A stretch of 64,000 nt of DNA from Pusillibacter faecalis (lineage in GTDB: Bacteria > Bacillota > Clostridia > Oscillospirales > Oscillospiraceae). Below are positions 2,340 through 14,117 of the stretch, in pieces. Where the stretch lies: the NCBI RefSeq assembly GCF_018408705.1, contig NZ_AP023420.1, positions 310,001 to 374,000 of the forward strand, in the 5' to 3' direction. The notes below the pieces were generated by a model, which was given only the letters and a program-made list of their open reading frames with translations, was not told the origin of the DNA and did not search any database. Every line of letters starts with the position of its first letter. Positions within the stretch are counted from its first letter, which is position 1. Both the position numbers and the translations under genes were made by a program.

Positions 2340-2981
2340 TCAATGATAAAGATTTTTGTTGATCTGGATCTGCTTTTCATAAACAGAAAGGTCCTTGGCC
2401 GTCGCCTGCTCCGGGTCGTCGGCTCTGCCCACGCCCACGGTGGCGTCCGCCGGCACGGAAACAATGGACACCTCCAGCGGCGTCCATTTGCGGGCGATCT
2501 GGCAGGGGCCTGTAAAACGTCCGTCCGCGGAGGTCTTACCGGCCACCACTTCCTCCCAGCTGTCCACGCTGTAACGCACGGACGTGGTTTTCAGGGTGCC
2601 GGATTTGACTTTGCCGAAAATCTTTTCGGCGTCGTCGTCCGTGTCGAACTCCACTTCGGCCATGCCGCGGTGGTTCTCCACCCATGCGCGGATCACTTTT
2701 CCCACCACCTTGTCGGTGTCGTGGTTGAAAAGCAAAACGCCCACGTCGTTCAGGCGGGAGAGATCCAGCGCGTTCTCCGCGTGATCCAGGATTTCCATAC
2801 CAAACCAACGGCGGTATGGCTCCTCGCTGGAAAAGCTGATCGTGCGCCTGCGGCTGTCCTCCTGGCCCTCTGCGCGGCTGTTGGCCTCAATGTGGCCCAT
2901 GCTTCGCTGCCCGCTGTTTCTGTCCCTCTTGGGGTCATTTGCCTGCGGTGTTCTGCTGTGCTGCTGTCGTTCCATTTCCAA
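2340..2981 (-). CDS. Prohead protease, S78/U35 (HK97 gp4-like)
   Basis: A serine protease of 213 residues that trims the capsid delta domain and scaffold during prohead maturation. The catalytic signatures are visible: the His in GVLLFNHDTDKVVGKV (about residue 90) and the Ser in the strand LEVSIVSVPAD (about residue 172). The first about 45 residues are polar and variable. The frame opens with TTG at 2981, which has AGGAGG at good distance. The ATG six bases later (2975) is the alternative start but is too far from the ribosome site. The gene overlaps the end of the portal gene by 47 bases, a translational-coupling arrangement. Confidence 0.9.
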   Translation of the reverse strand: MEMERQQHSRTPQANDPKRDRNSGQRSMGHIEANSRAEGQEDSRRRTISFSSEEPYRRWFGMEILDHAENALDLSRLNDVGVLLFNHDTDKVVGKVIRAWVENHRGMAEVEFDTDDDAEKIFGKVKSGTLKTTSVRYSVDSWEEVVAGKTSADGRFTGPCQIARKWTPLEVSIVSVPADATVGVGRADDPEQATAKDLSVYEKQIQINKNLYH

Positions 2982-4416
2982 AAATTACACCTCCTAACTC
3001 GACGCCGACGGATCGGCCATATTCCAGGACCTCGGCCATTTCATTGACGGCCTCTTTCCAGTCCTTGCCCTGTTCCGCGCAAACGTCCTGAAACGTCTTT
3101 TGCCCGGATTGCAGGGCGGTTTTTCCGGCGGTGCTTTCCTTTGCCGGGTCGATCCACTTCTTGGGGGCTTTCGTCCAGGTGTGGGAAAGGTATTCCGCCT
3201 TTTTATCCCAAAAGCCGGGCATATCAACCAGCCCGGAGAGATAACAGGAGATAACAAAGGTTTCGTACACCTCCGACATGAAATCTGTTAGCAGTTCCAC
3301 GTCCTCGGTGTATGTGTTTTCGTCCTCAATAGCATTTTGCCGTGCGGAGGAATAGGTGGCCCCGCTCATGTCGCGGCTGACGGCCTCATAACTCAAGCCC
3401 TGGCCTGCGGCAATTAGACCCTGCTGGGTTTTCAGGAACCCGGCTGCGTCGCTGCCGGAACCTTTCGGATCCACCACCTGGATTTCGTCACCGGCGCCCA
3501 GGCTCTGGATCATGCCGGGGGCCAGTTTCTTGCCCTCATAGTCCATTCCGCCGTCCGGCGTTCTGGTGCCGCCGCGGCCAAAACCGCCCGCCGGGATTGC
3601 CCGCTTGATGAACACAGCCAGGCAGGCCGCGATCCGCTCCTTGACGGAAACGGCGGTTATAAACTCATTCGTGTCGCGCACTCTGGTGATCGTGGGGGCC
3701 ATGTCGGACATTTCGCGCAGCTGGCTGGGCCGCTTCTTGGATTTGTAGAAATACACGTCCTTGGCCTCGACGTAAACGGGGTCGTTCAGGCTCCAGCCCT
3801 CAATGTCGTATTGATTGATCCAGTAGCCCACCGGCCTGCGCCATTGGTTGTATTCGATCCCGCCCACGACGCGGTTTCCCTGGTACTTCGGCTTGCTGGC
3901 GGTCACGTCCAGTTCGTCCACCTCAATGGCCTGCAGCTGGAACGGGACCAGCCCCTGCTTAGTGTAGCGGTAAAGGAACAGCAGGCCGCCGTCCACCTTT
4001 TTGCGGTCTACCGCCATACGCAGCATTTGGTTGAAACTCTGTTCGCCGGTCACGTCGCAGTTTCTGGCCTTGCACCATTGGCGCCATGCCTTTTCCAGCT
4101 TTTCGTCCAGTTCGTCGTTTCCGGTTTTAGCCTGGAGGGTGTAACCCTTGCCCACCACGTTGCGCTTGTATGCGTGGAGGATAGACTGGGCAATATCACT
4201 GTTGCGCTCCAGGTCGCGGGCGCGGGCGCGTACCACGTCACGGCTGAAACGGTCCGTAACCTCCGCACTTTCGTTGTGTACCCGCCACCCGGCATTTAGG
4301 CGCCCATACCCTGCGGCGTCATATCCGCGCAGGATCTCCAGCTGCTGCCGCCATGCCTCGCGCTCACAGGCGCGGCGCGGGGAAACGGCGGCCACAATTT
4401 TGTCAAAGGCTCCCAT
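2935..4416 (-). CDS. Phage portal protein, lambda (gpB) family
   Basis: A 493-residue lambda-type portal. The N-terminus AYKRNVVGKGYTL and the central QFNQML-like and DGGLLFLYRY segments are characteristic of the family, as is the ATYSSARQNAIEDENTY region near residue 350, which matches the SYSSARLALLE block of lambda gpB relatives. A dodecamer of this protein forms the DNA entry vertex and docks the terminase. It starts at ATG after GGGAGGTAACC, two bases after the joiner gene, and runs into the prohead protease gene. There is no sign of damage. Confidence 0.92.
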   Translation of the reverse strand: MGAFDKIVAAVSPRRACEREAWRQQLEILRGYDAAGYGRLNAGWRVHNESAEVTDRFSRDVVRARARDLERNSDIAQSILHAYKRNVVGKGYTLQAKTGNDELDEKLEKAWRQWCKARNCDVTGEQSFNQMLRMAVDRKKVDGGLLFLYRYTKQGLVPFQLQAIEVDELDVTASKPKYQGNRVVGGIEYNQWRRPVGYWINQYDIEGWSLNDPVYVEAKDVYFYKSKKRPSQLREMSDMAPTITRVRDTNEFITAVSVKERIAACLAVFIKRAIPAGGFGRGGTRTPDGGMDYEGKKLAPGMIQSLGAGDEIQVVDPKGSGSDAAGFLKTQQGLIAAGQGLSYEAVSRDMSGATYSSARQNAIEDENTYTEDVELLTDFMSEVYETFVISCYLSGLVDMPGFWDKKAEYLSHTWTKAPKKWIDPAKESTAGKTALQSGQKTFQDVCAEQGKDWKEAVNEMAEVLEYGRSVGVELGGVIFGNGTTAAQQNTAGK

Positions 4417-4657: not shown

Positions 4658-6502
4658 TCAGATCCATGTGTCATTTTGGTTGATCCAGTTTTCTTCCTGG
4701 CTTTGTTGCGGTTCCTGCTTGGCCGGTTTCCGCGGCTCCGGTGCCGCCGCCTGTCCCTCCACGCTTTTCAGGTACAGGGACCGGACGCCCATAACGTCCG
4801 CCGCCGCGGCTGCGTACACCTCGCAGTCCAGGTAATGGTTGTCAGCGTGGGAGGATTTCAGCACCCATTTCTGGACCTCTTTCCCGCCGGATCGCTCGGT
4901 TACCTTGTGTTCCGCCGTTACCTGTTCGGCGTATTCCATGTCGCAGTCCTTGTAAACCTGCCAGGAACCTGTCCCGTTCGGCTTCCGCATACGGGCTGCG
5001 ATCTGGTCTTTATACTTGCCGCCGTCCACCAATACCAGGGTCATGCCGTGGGCCTTGCTTCCGGCCTTATTGACCACGGAAAGGCGGTAATGGGACAGCA
5101 TGGTGCTGGTGCCCTTGCATGGCAGCACCCAGTCCGAATTGATGGCGCAGAACTCGTAAACTTCGTCGGTCTGGTCGCCGCTGTCCATCAGGGCCAGGTT
5201 GACCATGGCCGTGTCGCCGTTCGGCAGGGAAAACTCCACGTTCATGGCCTTTTCCACCTCTGCCATGGAAAGCGCCTGCCCGTGGGCCACGTTCTGGCTG
5301 GTCATGTAGTCGCCCCATGCGCGGATCGTCCAGTACAGACAATTTTCCTGTACGTCGATCCCGCCGGTAATTAGCTTCGTCCAGGGCGGCAGCGTCCACT
5401 CCGGCGTTTCCGTCTGCCGCTCCATGACCAACTCCGCGTTGGTTTTCAGCTTCGTGTCCTCCCACGGCTCCGCCAGCCAGCTGTTGGTGAAGTTGTGCAG
5501 CAGTTCCGGGTCGTCTTTGCTCCGCATGAACTCCCGCGCAATATCGGAAAAACGGGTGAACGGGGAATACAGGGTGTTCAGCCAAAAGGCCACGCTTTTG
5601 GGGTTCTTCGTCCGTTGCTTCACAGCCTGCCAGCGGCCAGCCCGTAGCATTTTCCCCTTGTCCTGATCCGTAATCACGGCCCCGCAGGCTTGGCACACAT
5701 ACACGGCCATTTCCGCCCGGTCGGTGTTTTCCGGTACGTCGTCCTTGCTGGGCCATTTCAGGCAGCCGAATTTCAGTTCTATATACTGCCCACAATGCGG
5801 GCACGGGACAAAGTAATGCTTTTCAGCCTCCGCCGCCTCTTTGGCTTTCCAGATATGGCCCGTTTTCAGGGTGGGGGTGGAGGCCATAAAGATTTTGCGG
5901 TTGAAAAAGGTTTTTGTACGCTCTCGCGCCAGGGAAACGGGGTCGGCCTCTTTCTTGGACGCGCCCGGAAACTTGTCCACTTCGTCCAGAAACAGGTAAC
6001 GTATATTCGTGCTGGCCAGATCCGCCGGGCTGTTCGCTCCCGTCAGGTACACGGTCATGTCGGAAAACTTTAGCGCCAGTTTCTTGCTGTCGTTCTTCCG
6101 CCACTTGTCAGCCAGAACCTTGCAGCTTTTCACCATTGGCTCCAGTTTGCTTTCCGTGGTGCGCTCCGCCAGGTCGTCCGACGGGTAAACCACCATGGCC
6201 GGGGCCGGATCCTGCGCGATCAGGCTTCCCAGCATATTCTCCATGGCAGACGTGCCGCCCACCTGGGTGGGCTTCACGAACACGATTTCCTCCACCATGT
6301 CGTCGGAAAAGGCGTCCATGATCTCCACCAGGTACGGGGTCACGCTGTTGCTCCATGGGCCTGGGATCGCGTTTCCGTCCGGCAATACGCGGTATTTAGC
6401 CGCCCACTCCGAAACCGTCAGGCGTTCCACAGGGCGCAGCACTTGAATGGCGTTATAGATCCACGGCGGCACGGTATAGGGTTCCTGCTTGTACTTCCTC
6501 AT
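4658..6502 (-). CDS. terL: Terminase large subunit, GpA family
   Basis: This 614-residue packaging motor of the lambda gpA family cuts concatemeric DNA and pumps it into the prohead using ATP. A Walker-A-like loop KPTQVGGTS is at residues 77-85 and the Walker B LFLDEVD at 170-176. A Cys pair cluster (CPHCGQY and CQACGAV, about 235-280) looks like a zinc-binding insert. The C-terminal half holds the nuclease region (GIDVQENCLYW, then VLVDGGKYKDQIAARM). The ATG overlaps the terS stop (ATGA-type coupling). Full length for the family. Confidence 0.93.
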   Translation of the reverse strand: MRKYKQEPYTVPPWIYNAIQVLRPVERLTVSEWAAKYRVLPDGNAIPGPWSNSVTPYLVEIMDAFSDDMVEEIVFVKPTQVGGTSAMENMLGSLIAQDPAPAMVVYPSDDLAERTTESKLEPMVKSCKVLADKWRKNDSKKLALKFSDMTVYLTGANSPADLASTNIRYLFLDEVDKFPGASKKEADPVSLARERTKTFFNRKIFMASTPTLKTGHIWKAKEAAEAEKHYFVPCPHCGQYIELKFGCLKWPSKDDVPENTDRAEMAVYVCQACGAVITDQDKGKMLRAGRWQAVKQRTKNPKSVAFWLNTLYSPFTRFSDIAREFMRSKDDPELLHNFTNSWLAEPWEDTKLKTNAELVMERQTETPEWTLPPWTKLITGGIDVQENCLYWTIRAWGDYMTSQNVAHGQALSMAEVEKAMNVEFSLPNGDTAMVNLALMDSGDQTDEVYEFCAINSDWVLPCKGTSTMLSHYRLSVVNKAGSKAHGMTLVLVDGGKYKDQIAARMRKPNGTGSWQVYKDCDMEYAEQVTAEHKVTERSGGKEVQKWVLKSSHADNHYLDCEVYAAAAADVMGVRSLYLKSVEGQAAAPEPRKPAKQEPQQSQEENWINQNDTWI

Positions 6503-7101
6503 GGCGCCGCGTCCTCCCGCTCCTCCATGATCGCACCATCAGAGAACGCGGCCAGCAGGCTTTCCAACTCTTTCCGCATGGCCTTTTCCATGGCACGGAT
6601 CGCCACTGTGTCAGCATAGCCGGACATGGTTCCGGCCATGCGCGGGGGTATATTCATGGCGAATTTCTTAAAGCTGGACATGAACTCGGTTAGTTCCTCG
6701 GTGGCGTGATCTGCCGCCAGGTAACGCCCCTCTGCAATCGCCGTTTTCAGGCGGTGCAGCTGTCCTTGGCTTTCTTTCAGTTCAACCTCCGCCTCCAGCT
6801 TTTTCAGCGTCAACTCCGCCGCCCGGCTGTTTTCGCCGGTTTCCTGGGCTTTCGCCTCGACGTATGCCACATAACGCTGGACCGTGGCGCAGGTTCTATA
6901 TTTGCGGGCACCGCCGCCGGGCGGGATCTCTGTTTCCAGGACGCCCTCCTGGGTCAGCTGTTGCACACGGCGGACCGTTTTCCCCAGCAGCTGGGAGATC
7001 ACCGTGGTGCTGGACCACTCCGGCACCGTGCCGGACAGCACCGCCGGCTTTTCGCTCTTTGCCCGCTTTCCGGTGCCGCCGGTCTGCTTCTTTTCCGCCA
7101 C
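6499..7101 (-). CDS. terS: Terminase small subunit (Nu1-like)
   Basis: About 200 residues. After a basic N-terminus comes a winged-helix-like DNA-binding segment (VISQLLGKTVRRVQQLTQEG, then GGGARKYRT) of the Nu1 type, followed by a long charged helix (about 80-115) and a helical C-terminal part that would contact terL. It recognises the packaging site on phage DNA. GTG at 7101 is chosen because AAGGAGG lies 8 bases ahead; an earlier GTG at 7110 overlaps that ribosome site. It is the first gene after the 0.5 kb noncoding region, as expected if cos lies there. Confidence 0.85.
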   Translation of the reverse strand: MAEKKQTGGTGKRAKSEKPAVLSGTVPEWSSTTVISQLLGKTVRRVQQLTQEGVLETEIPPGGGARKYRTCATVQRYVAYVEAKAQETGENSRAAELTLKKLEAEVELKESQGQLHRLKTAIAEGRYLAADHATEELTEFMSSFKKFAMNIPPRMAGTMSGYADTVAIRAMEKAMRKELESLLAAFSDGAIMEEREDAAP

Positions 7102-7196
7102 CGGCGCCACCTCCTTTTTGCTCCGGCAGGGTGCCCCGCCGGTTTCGCTTTTCCGGTTTTGGTCGATTTCGTTTTTTTCGCCGCTCCTTTTTCGAC

Positions 7197-11040: not shown

Positions 11041-12858
11041 TTACACGGCCACCAGCCGCTCCAGCTGTGCCATGGTCGTGATTGTTGTTCCGCACCATTC
11101 CGGCAGGTTTGCCCGAACCAGGGCCGTGGCAAACGGTGGCGGTACTGCGTTCCCGCACCTTGCCACTTGCTTGGTTTTCCCGTACTCCTTGCCGGTGTAA
11201 TCTTTGTCGATTTTATAATCATCAGGAAAGCCGTTCGCCCTGTACAATTCCCGCGGCGTCAGCATACGCAGCCCTATATCAGCCATGAAATACCAGGCGC
11301 CTCCGATCAAAAACAGGATCACCTCATTGTCCGCCAGCGTGTAGCCGCAATACTCATTCAGGGCGGCACGGATTTTTGGCCAGTTTCGGAGATCGGCGCC
11401 CGGTGTCGCTTTTACCACTTCGGTGGTAATCACCCCATGATGGCCTCCGCCAGCGGTTATTGTTTGCACCGGCTCCGTTGCAGGCCCGCCCAGGTTTGTA
11501 CCTTTCAGTTTGACCATGCTGGCCATTGTGATAGCTTCACGATCCCGCGTCGTGACCGTGTGAAGCGGTGCGCCCGCGCTCTGGTTGTGGTCGCCGCTGT
11601 AATACTTTGTCAGCGTAGCCGCCGCCAGGCCGTAGCGGTTGGAGGCGTCAATGGTCATAACAGGTTCTTTGACGCTTTGGCCTCGCACTCGCTCCGATTG
11701 CTCCGTGTGGTACTGGATCATGGCCGGACACGCCACGCACTCCTCCGCTTTTGACACCTGGGTGTGCGTCGGCTCCATTACGCTGCGCCCGCGGTCCCCG
11801 CCGCCGGTCTGCCCGATTGCGGCCAGGGTTGGCGTAATCAGCATTTGGTTTCCTGCGGTTGTCACGGTATGCACTGGGGCGCCCGCGGCTGCCCCCACGC
11901 TGTTGGTGGTATTCGTTACCGTCAGCGGCGCCATGACAGGGGAGGCCACGCCGTACCCGTGTTTTGCTGTCACAGTTTGAAGCGGCCCGCTCATTTCTTG
12001 CCCGCGGAAATCCCCAGCATGGTTGACAATCACCAGAAACGGATCCGCCGATTTTATCACGAACTTGTCCACGCCTCTGGCCACACGCCGCATAGTATTG
12101 GGACGGAGGGGGCGCTGCGCCGAAAGCCCATATTTTTCCTTGATCTCTGCGCGGCTGTCAAAAATGGACGGGCACGGCAGGCTCCAGTCTATGATTTCCG
12201 CCGCGCTGCGCCATGGTTTTTTCTTTCCGCTCTTTACCTCCGGGCTGTCTGCCGGTGCGTGTGTTGGTTCCGGCCATACAATAGGCCGCCCGTCATGCCT
12301 GGCAATCAGGAAAAACCGCTTTCGCGTTGTGGGCGCTCCATAATCCGCGGCCACAAGTTCGCGCCACTCGACGGCATACCCCAGGTTTTTAAGCTGCTCC
12401 AGCCATTTGTGGAAAGTTTGGCCCACCAGTTTTTTGACAGGCTTTCCTTTTCGCACAGGCCCCCACGTTTGGAACTCCTCCACGTTCTCCAGAATAATCA
12501 CGCGCGGACGGACCGTTCCGGCCCAGCGCAGGACGATCCATGCAAGCCCGCGTATATTTTTGTCAACAGGTTTCCCACCCTTGGCCTTGCTGAAATGCTT
12601 GCAATCCGGGGAGAACCAGGCCAGGCCCACGGGGCGCCCTTGGCAGACTTCCACCGGGTCCACGTCCCACACGCTGGCTTGAAAATGGCGCGTGTGCGGG
12701 TGGTTCGTCTTGTGCATTAAAATGGCGTCAGGATCGTGGTTCACCGCTATGTCTACCACGCGGCCCGTGGCTAATTCGATCCCGGTTGACGCGCCACCGC
12801 CGCCGGCGAAATTGTCCACTATGATTTCGTCCAGGAAATTGATCTGCGCCCCACTCAT
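11041..12858 (-). CDS. DNA cytosine-C5 methyltransferase with repeat-containing target domain
   Basis: A C5-cytosine methyltransferase of 605 residues. Motif I is DNFAGGGGASTG (15-26); the catalytic Cys is C86 in SPDCKHFS, a variant of the usual PCQ loop; motif VI is ENVEEF (124-129); motif VIII is in GAPTTRKRFFLIA; motifs IX-X are in the last 80 residues (CGNAVPPPFATAL). Residues about 285-470 carry six spaced copies of a [G/A/E]-P-x-x-T-[V/I]-[T/S/D] strand, replacing an ordinary target recognition domain. ATG 12858 is used; the longer frame overlaps the DUF4406 gene. It probably protects phage DNA from host restriction. Confidence 0.9.
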   Translation of the reverse strand: MSGAQINFLDEIIVDNFAGGGGASTGIELATGRVVDIAVNHDPDAILMHKTNHPHTRHFQASVWDVDPVEVCQGRPVGLAWFSPDCKHFSKAKGGKPVDKNIRGLAWIVLRWAGTVRPRVIILENVEEFQTWGPVRKGKPVKKLVGQTFHKWLEQLKNLGYAVEWRELVAADYGAPTTRKRFFLIARHDGRPIVWPEPTHAPADSPEVKSGKKKPWRSAAEIIDWSLPCPSIFDSRAEIKEKYGLSAQRPLRPNTMRRVARGVDKFVIKSADPFLVIVNHAGDFRGQEMSGPLQTVTAKHGYGVASPVMAPLTVTNTTNSVGAAAGAPVHTVTTAGNQMLITPTLAAIGQTGGGDRGRSVMEPTHTQVSKAEECVACPAMIQYHTEQSERVRGQSVKEPVMTIDASNRYGLAAATLTKYYSGDHNQSAGAPLHTVTTRDREAITMASMVKLKGTNLGGPATEPVQTITAGGGHHGVITTEVVKATPGADLRNWPKIRAALNEYCGYTLADNEVILFLIGGAWYFMADIGLRMLTPRELYRANGFPDDYKIDKDYTGKEYGKTKQVARCGNAVPPPFATALVRANLPEWCGTTITTMAQLERLVAV

Positions 12859-13157
12859 GTTTCCGGCCCTCCAAACGTCGCCAGGTCGAAACAGGTCTGT
12901 TTCCCAACGTACTGGCACCACGCCCATTCCAGCATGGCGCCGCGGCTGTCCTGATAGTCCTGCATGAACAGAACCACGTCCGCCGCCTCCATCATGGCGA
13001 AACACAGGCGCATATAATCCACGGGGCGCAGCCCCTCCGGCGCCGTGGCGGGGTTCAGTACGATATGGCCCGCCGCCGCCAGCTTCTTTTCCACCTCTCG
13101 GAACTTGGCTTTATAACGCCTGTCCCCGGTGATCTTGCCTGATATGTAGATTTTCAC
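12855..13157 (-). CDS. DUF4406 protein (nucleoside deoxyribosyltransferase-like fold)
   Basis: The protein has 100 residues, beginning MKIYISGKITGD, with AAGHIVLNPATAPEG and the helix DYMRLCFAMMEAADVVLFM, then DSRGAMLEWAWCQYVGK. This is the pattern of DUF4406, related to nucleoside 2-deoxyribosyltransferases; the Asp and Glu in ADVV and LEW are the usual conserved acids. GTG start after AGGAGGGTTTTCT. It overlaps the C5 methyltransferase start by 4 bases. It might process modified nucleotides, but this is inference. Confidence 0.85.
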   Translation of the reverse strand: MKIYISGKITGDRRYKAKFREVEKKLAAAGHIVLNPATAPEGLRPVDYMRLCFAMMEAADVVLFMQDYQDSRGAMLEWAWCQYVGKQTCFDLATFGGPET

Positions 13158-13168
13158 AGAAAACCCTC

Positions 13169-13918
13169 CTATTCGTTGAAAATCTCGAAATACTCCTGGT
13201 ATGGGTAACCGCTGATCTCATGCCACCCGCTCCGGCAGGTGGATCCGTCGTCGAACTTATACAGCACGGCGCCCTTTCTCGCTTTCGGGTCCTTTCTCCA
13301 GCTGGACGCAGGCACGGCGGTGTATGTGATTTCCGGCTTGTCCATGTTCTGCGTTTTGCTGTACCGCTTCCCGCGCTTGCCGATCTCTCTGTACCTCTCC
13401 ATGGTGGAACGGCTTTCTTTCATCAGGTAGGCGGCCAGCTTGTAGTGGTTGCCGCGCCTGTCCATAGGCTTGAAGCTGATACCTCCGCCGCCTCTTGGGA
13501 CATTCTCCCACGCCTCCGTGATGATCTCCGGATCCATGCGGGAAATGATAACGTGAATGTGCGGGTTGGTCATGCGCTTGGTTTCTATGACCACCACGGC
13601 CTTGAACGTGATCCCGCGCTTTTTGCAGAGTTTCCGCAGGTTCCGCAGAAAAGCGGCCTTGTTCTCCAGGATCTCCTCGAAAGAACTGTCCTTGACGTAG
13701 TAGTGTAGAACGGCGTGGAGATCCCTATGGCCGAAATTGGCGTTTATATCCCACCGCAAATGTTCCTCCGCCACCCGCTCGTTGATCCGCTCCTGCTTCT
13801 CGGTGGTGTGCCCAGTATTGGGGCCGCGCTTCACTCCTTTTGTGTGAACCCGGAAAGATTGCATTTTCTTGTGTTCGACACACGGACCAGCTTTCACCAC
13901 CCTATGAACGTAGGCCAT
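13169..13918 (-). CDS. HUH-type replication initiator (Rep, G2P/ORF2-like)
   Basis: The 249-residue protein carries the HUH nickase signature: NPHIHVIIS with His120 and His122, preceded by the strand FKAVVVIETKR, and a downstream helix NHYKLAAYLMKES with Tyr159 and Tyr164 as candidate nucleophiles. Such enzymes nick one strand at an origin and start rolling-circle replication, as in filamentous phages, RCR plasmids and P2 gpA. ATG follows GGAGGCACCC. No primase, helicase loader or recombinase is seen in this arm, so this is the likely replication initiator. A possible antisense RNA lies in its leader. Confidence 0.82.
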   Translation of the reverse strand: MAYVHRVVKAGPCVEHKKMQSFRVHTKGVKRGPNTGHTTEKQERINERVAEEHLRWDINANFGHRDLHAVLHYYVKDSSFEEILENKAAFLRNLRKLCKKRGITFKAVVVIETKRMTNPHIHVIISRMDPEIITEAWENVPRGGGGISFKPMDRRGNHYKLAAYLMKESRSTMERYREIGKRGKRYSKTQNMDKPEITYTAVPASSWRKDPKARKGAVLYKFDDGSTCRSGWHEISGYPYQEYFEIFNE

Positions 13919-14004
13919 GGGTGCCTCCTTTTCTGCTGCTGGTCACTTTACTAATCACTCTTACCGGCGCTATACGGGGCCGTGGCCCCGTCGCTTTTTC
14001 CGGC

Positions 14005-14033
14005 TTGTATTCCGCCCGGGAACCTGATATAAT
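14005..14033 (+). promoter_or_regulatory. Plus-strand extended -10 promoter inside the minus-strand prophage operon
   Basis: TTGTAT (14005-14010), 17 bases, then TG-A-TATAAT (14025-14033): a perfect -10 with the extended TG element and a weak -35. It points against all surrounding genes. Confidence 0.55.
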
Positions 14034-14039
14034 ATAGGT

Positions 14040-14117
14040 ATATCGGACGGTTTTCCGTCGTCTATATTGCCACCTGCGCCGTGTTGACAGCACCGGGCGC
14101 AGGTGGCTTTTCTTTTT
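14040..14117 (+). ncRNA. Candidate antisense small RNA in the rep leader
   Basis: A transcript from the extended -10 promoter would start near 14040. It would form an imperfect hairpin (GACGG-TTTT-CCGTC core, 14048-14062), then a perfect 12-bp stem (GCCACCTGCGCC / GGCGCAGGTGGC, 14069-14107) followed by TTTTCTTTTT, a textbook intrinsic terminator. It would be about 78 nt and fully complementary to the mRNA leader 120-200 nt upstream of the HUH rep start. The same layout is used by countertranscribed RNAs of rolling-circle plasmids. The sequence elements are seen; the RNA itself and its role are inferred. Confidence 0.45.

Follow-up and report, generated by a model that had tools for sequence, protein, structure and literature searches.

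What is a transcription unit that faces against a phage replication gene doing in the leader of that gene? The window, the whole stretch of 64,000 nucleotides of Pusillibacter faecalis DNA analysed here, lies inside a 2.9-Mb contig and carries its tailed-phage genes on the minus strand. One of these encodes an HUH replication initiator (Rep), and its leader holds a promoter on the plus strand with a terminator close behind it (Table 1). Promoter, terminator, their conservation and a fixed antisense orientation at diverse rep leaders can all be read from the sequence itself, which gives good support to an antisense transcription unit in the HUH rep leader. Its product is probably a countertranscribed RNA that acts, like those of plasmids, to reduce the synthesis of Rep.

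Table 1. Features of the antisense unit and its surroundings (positions in the window)
Feature	Position	Strand	Remarks
Whole antisense transcription unit	14005-14117	+	Leader of HUH rep gene (13169-13918, −)
−35 element TTGTAT	14005-14010	+	Read directly; TTG in 21/21 distinct copies
Extended −10 TG-A-TATAAT	14025-14033	+	TG 14025-14026, TATAAT 14028-14033
Predicted 78-nt antisense RNA	14040-14117	+	Start set 7 nt past −10
First hairpin of RNA, GACGG-TTTT-CCGTC	14046-14059	+	Fold
Terminator	14069-14117	+	Stem-loop 14069-14107, T-rich tail 14108-14117
Inverted repeat around −10	14012-14050		Arm c 14012-14018, arm b 14044-14050
Upstream ORF, 77 aa	14116-14349	−	Stop codon touches end of antisense unit
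rep, HUH replication initiator, 249 aa	13169-13918	−	PF23343, phrog_3584
DUF4406 gene, after rep	12855-13157	−	Pfam
Stem C, rep leader	13974-13991	−	Present with rep, missing from copies without adjacent rep
Conserved box GTAAGAGTGATTAGTAAAGTGACC	13941-13964	−	Adjoins stem C
Small terminase	6499-7110	−	
Terminase large subunit	4658-6502	−	
Portal	2935-4416	−	

The Rep protein scores 34.4 bits against PF23343 (cut-off 27.8) and matches phrog_3584 with an E value of 6.2e-41; its HxH motif reads HIH in the translation, and a comparison with solved structures found no relative (best E 0.72). Read directly, the promoter consists of TTGTAT, a 17-nt spacer and then TGATATAAT, an extended −10 promoter exactly where the initial annotation had placed it. 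The terminator stem of 12 bp (GCCACCTGCGCC/GGCGCAGGTGGC) is followed by the tail TTTTCTTTTT, which ends at 14117. The 78-nt RNA is predicted to fold into two hairpins at −38.8 kcal/mol, the second being the terminator itself, so that the two stem-loops and 12-bp stem first described are one too many if the terminator is taken separately. Measured from the Rep start at 13918, the RNA lies opposite the leader 122-199 nt upstream, in agreement with the 120-200 nt first assigned to it.

Judged by consensus alone, the unit does not stand out, because a simple scan of the region finds counts near those of shuffled sequence (4 promoters against 1.8 and 7 terminators against 5.6) and lists neither part of the unit: the −35 element has 3 of the 6 consensus letters, and the loop of the 12-bp terminator exceeds the limit of the scanner. 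A scan of the window with Rfam at the curated threshold gave no match to the antisense unit. Its only match lies elsewhere, an ordinary FMN riboswitch (RF00050, 53482-53608, 115.1 bits).

The unit is more than chance because it is conserved in relatives of rep. Loss of promoter and terminator in close relatives that keep rep had been named at the outset as the result that would speak against the proposal, and the opposite was found: both are retained in 17 of 17 close relatives (Rep 63-100% identical; 15 distinct sequences). They are present as well in all seven contigs that were found through the hairpin and have no rep directly after it. TTG and TATAAT occur in 21 of 21 distinct copies, the window included; the search expression required both, yet it missed none of these loci. 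The spacer is 17 nt long in 20 of these copies and 16 nt in one, while TG is kept in 19 and followed by any of the four bases. In the terminator 95.8% of cells are paired, and its stem has eight G.U cells on the plus strand and none on the minus strand, an excess that fits a plus-strand terminator, four of the eight being one pair within one lineage. The first hairpin has 91.6% of its cells paired, and both sides of one pair have changed. Copies of the window type show almost no variation in the terminator stem and loop, and more in the RNA start region and spacer. This near-invariance exceeds what sense-antisense pairing needs, since such pairing is complementary whatever the sequence.

The unit is also found away from rep. 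The loop pattern matched 19 viral contigs, made up of seven known rep loci, seven units without a rep directly after them and five unrelated sequences (L043, L045, L053, L055 and L057), which share the loop pattern only, the rest of the unit being missing. In six of the seven units with no rep directly after them the next frame starts like the DUF4406 protein of the window, L040 having a different frame; the one scanned, directly after the unit of L042, is DUF4406 (E 6.9e-30). Another phrog_3584 rep is present in five of these seven contigs, and the two without it are fragments of 6.3 and 4.1 kb. Where the contigs are whole (L040, L042 and L044), the unit precedes the start of this other rep by 2.6, 4.0 and 5.2 kb, respectively. 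The five such reps have no unit in their own 330-nt leaders, even at relaxed thresholds. Two further model matches were excluded from the relatives: in L062 the match is a terminator flanked by convergent genes, and L063 lies between repressor-like and integrase-like frames, as read from the sequence.

These same copies bear on where Rep might act. The −10 segment TGATATAAT is reminiscent of rolling-circle nick sites, a role that was dropped because the unit persists without an adjacent rep, where stem C and the box are absent. That absence makes stem C and the box the better candidates for the Rep origin, of which stem C may form part, with GTAAGAGTGATTAGTAAAGTGACC as a candidate Rep recognition or nick region. 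The reps of L069-L071 are preceded by a similar hairpin and a box containing TAGTAA.

Rep leaders were surveyed with a strict detector, which demanded 5 of the 6 letters of TATAAT, a summed score for the −10, TG and −35 elements, a terminator end 35-180 nt downstream and a unit no more than 330 nt from the rep start. Across both surveys, of the bacterial family and of the class, the unit stands antisense in 26 of 119 leaders, five of these 26 being already known or expected, and sense in 0 of 119, against 8 of 1325 antisense control tiles; the remaining 93 of the 119 leaders have no unit by this detector. In the family, phrog_3584 was matched in 90 of 300 genomes, and the set of 91 leaders comprises the best 96 of 132 places minus the window and four places at a contig edge or with a partial match. 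Antisense units were detected in 15 of the 91, sense units in none, and shuffles gave 0 of 273. Tiles from the same loci yielded 6 of 1093 on either strand, an enrichment in leaders with a Fisher probability of 2.3e-13. Four loci (L132, L137, L139 and L140) are records seen before as L009-L012, of which L009 is the copy in Flavonifractor sp. An100, and L060 came from model R1; independent family units number 10 of 86. Three of the six antisense tile matches (L084, L099 and L103) are located 1.3-2.0 kb upstream of the rep that was scored, before a second rep match. L080, L084, L099 and L103 each have two rep-family matches in tandem, and the antisense unit precedes both. Units past the 330-nt limit, in L064, L065 and L067 (−314 to −324) and in L094 (−478), fall outside the 15. 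Relaxing the promoter threshold to 7 gave 19 of 91 antisense and 4 of 91 sense units; matches also appeared in 32 and 16 of 1093 tiles and in 2 of 91 shuffles, and only the strict setting was used because of this rise in sense, tile and shuffle matches.

The class survey covered 28 loci drawn from 53 places, one per genome, minus the window and one already used. Eleven of the 28 leaders carry an antisense unit, the one in L219 being weak, and none a sense unit; shuffles gave 0 of 280, and tiles 2 and 3 of 232. Among more distant reps, taken over about 400 nt with neither fixed starts nor tiles, the count is 5 of 20 antisense and 0 of 20 sense; two of the five (L017 and L033) are weak and have no TG, and the distant rep L018 is the same place as L230. 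The distant rep of Butyrivibrio phage Arawn has no unit. Single-linkage clustering at 45% identity of 118 Rep proteins from the two surveys, one truncated protein being omitted, gave 33 clusters, and the unit occurs in nine of them. L069 and L146 belong to different clusters and have nearly the same unit, which suggests exchange of units from rep to rep. Among viral contigs, all eight relatives of the L069 rep have the unit when the thresholds are slightly loosened. For the L146 rep the count is 9 of 42 relatives, several with a short upstream region (2 of 44 were omitted as partial), and no relative of the L087 Rep turned up in a search. L071, too, carries nearly the L069/L146 unit, these being in different Rep groups, and the terminator hairpins of L021, L022 and L024 are similar to that of the L069/L071/L146 unit.

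The structure of the unit holds a second regularity. The spacer between −35 and −10 (arm c) is complementary to the RNA segment ahead of the terminator (arm b), and this complementarity recurs in diverse units, with arms CCCCGGAG/CTCCGGGG in L069, GCCGAAAC/GTTTCGGC in L087, GCGCTTCT/AGAAGCGC in L060 and CCGCCGAT/ATCGGCGG in L064. In 19 units the unit's own arms pair at a mean of −15.1 kcal/mol versus −10.2 for crossed arms, a value that none of 20000 permutations reached. The observed mean was reached in 31 of 20000 permutations for 10 later units and in 0 of 20000 for a set of 20 units from which near copies had been removed. The b:c pairing is absent in L107, L221, L226 and L233, and there is little of it in L134, L080 and L099. 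In the window type 83.8% of b:c cells are paired and two pairs are changed on both sides; wobbles number 17 and 17, favouring neither strand. Because the antisense RNA starts past one arm, the rep mRNA alone can form the b:c stem. Segment b is shared by the a:b and b:c pairings.

We infer transcription of the RNA, its pairing with the mRNA and, through this pairing, a lower level of Rep. The plus-strand promoter would produce a short antisense RNA, stopped at its own terminator, which would base-pair with the rep operon mRNA in its leader and reduce the amount of Rep; more genome copies would then make more antisense RNA, a copy-number feedback. A free rep mRNA would fold the b:c stem, and antisense RNA that covers b would release c. 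In the MQRVKR subtype of Rep, the freed c could pair with the Shine-Dalgarno sequence and start codon and mask translation as in pSK41. For the window type, the first guess at the output step is decay of the duplex by RNase III, which would need no masking segment and would suit a unit that lies far upstream of rep in one operon.

Translation-start masking was examined by prediction. The match of segment c to the Shine-Dalgarno sequence or start codon has a p value of at most 0.05 in five of nine MQRVKR-subtype units (L131 and L179, 0.002; L172, 0.006; L133, 0.038; L174, 0.050) and lies above 0.05 in the others (L134, 0.062; L171, 0.086; also L135 and L146). When the antisense region was masked in 34 leaders, Shine-Dalgarno access fell by at least 0.15 in nine, two of them among the 13 window-type leaders and four of them near copies (L207-L211), and rose by more than 0.12 in three; the masking fold produced no such fall in L131, L133 and L172. 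Shine-Dalgarno masking was rejected for the window, where access is predicted at 0.70 whether or not the antisense region is masked and segment c does not match the translation start (p 0.97). An attenuator ahead of the window rep was likewise rejected, as stem C is followed by ATAGCGCCGG and there is no U-run. The antisense unit at the heart of the initial annotation stands on its sequence; the copy control proposed with it goes a step beyond, the window having neither attenuator nor Shine-Dalgarno masking and one lineage carrying the unit before DUF4406.

The complementary arms invite another explanation, in which the repeat would serve as an operator, and control of the operon would come from the process of antisense transcription rather than from its RNA product. 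Such a regulated, interfering promoter would account for a repeat that flanks the −10 element in diverse units and for wobbles that favour an RNA stem on neither strand, but the gap between the b and c arms, counted by hand, varies between 18 and 43 nt, which is awkward for one kind of protein, the arms are wholly different between units and the transcript ends after about 75 nt. This explanation is unlikely. A lagging-strand origin (sso), at which host RNA polymerase primes the displaced strand in rolling-circle replication, is more unlikely again. The primers of such origins have a polarity antisense to rep, so a primer made here would share the fixed antisense orientation and could be flexible in its place, as the lineage with the unit away from rep would allow, and the inverted repeat around the −10 element is in keeping with a folded strand. 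Against this, the unit has a full double-strand promoter with 17-nt spacing, its −10 element would sit in the loop of the folded strand and its strong intrinsic terminator would release the RNA. A trans-acting phage small RNA with other targets, for which the position antisense to rep would be secondary, could explain why the terminator loop is nearly invariant in the window type and why the unit is kept before DUF4406; antisense placement at diverse rep leaders, with differing hairpins, makes it decidedly improbable. A chance likeness to a promoter and a terminator, which the silence of the simple scanner and the small regional excess would permit, can be dismissed in view of the 17 relatives that keep both parts and the leader enrichment with its strict strand bias.

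The countertranscribed RNA favoured here has its nearest kind in the countertranscribed RNAs of plasmids, and its anatomy is like that of pSK41 RNAI. RNAI of the staphylococcal RepA_N plasmids is outlined as an RNA of about 83 nt with two stem-loops, some 100 nt upstream of the translation start (PMC5703833); the window RNA is likewise counter-transcribed to the rep leader, with 78 nt, two hairpins and a distance of 122 nt. Unlike pSK41, which encodes a RepA_N theta initiator on a plasmid, the window has a PF23343/phrog_3584 HUH Rep, and it showed no induced ribosome-site masking, for which there is only a hint in another Rep subtype. The 87-nt RNAI in the pT181 rep leader and RNAIII of pIP501 act by attenuation, according to the same source (PMC5703833). 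They share with the window an antisense RNA in the rep leader. Their competing mRNA stems may have a counterpart in a:b and b:c, which here have no link to a terminator; no stem with a U-run stands ahead of the window rep, and the initiator family is different. The window is filed under neither pT181 nor pSK41 because it lacks a defining feature of each. In the pMV158 RNAII/CopG type a small repressor gene, cop, is cotranscribed ahead of rep; the 77-aa upstream ORF of the window has no Pfam or PHROGs match.

Non-coding RNAs at replication loci are known from phages and hosts as well. In the RNA-based origins outlined for extrachromosomal mycobacteriophage prophages, an initiator RNA replaces Rep (PMC7157519); both cases concern tailed-phage prophages and a non-coding RNA linked to their replication, and here the predicted RNA is antisense to an HUH rep leader of a prophage within a 2.9-Mb contig. 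Lambda OOP, a short RNA at the phage replication region, is described as acting against CII (PMC5869508), and ArrA, an antisense RNA over the dnaA leader of Bacillus subtilis, as controlling a host gene (PMC12112137); unlike the window unit, neither has to do with an HUH rep. A further paper treats the HUH Reps of plasmids and viruses and mentions a Clostridiales group of unknown elements (PMC6668415). Titles and abstract openings in the open-access literature held no recognised report of an antisense RNA at a tailed-phage HUH rep.

The same design before related rep genes of Clostridia suggests a plasmid-like brake on phage replication. If so, plasmid-style copy control would operate in tailed phages of common gut bacteria, and prophage replication would be held by RNA as well as by any repressor present. 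More tentatively, and with the odds against so broad a picture, widespread and fast-evolving antisense cassettes might gate the HUH initiators of Clostridia tailed phages and pass between reps, their diverging hairpins setting compatibility groups and the RNA of a resident prophage silencing an incoming phage rep with a matching leader. Hairpin groups would in that case make prophage compatibility predictable from sequence. The surveys yield some thirty candidate units open to direct testing. Six loci (L131, L133, L134, L094, L172 and L179) share a conserved TTGAATAGC close to the antisense RNA start. In one copy, L014 (3791-3910), the terminator hairpin carries its loop in the opposite orientation to that of the other copies, as though it had flipped inside its own inverted repeat, and this copy still has a terminator.
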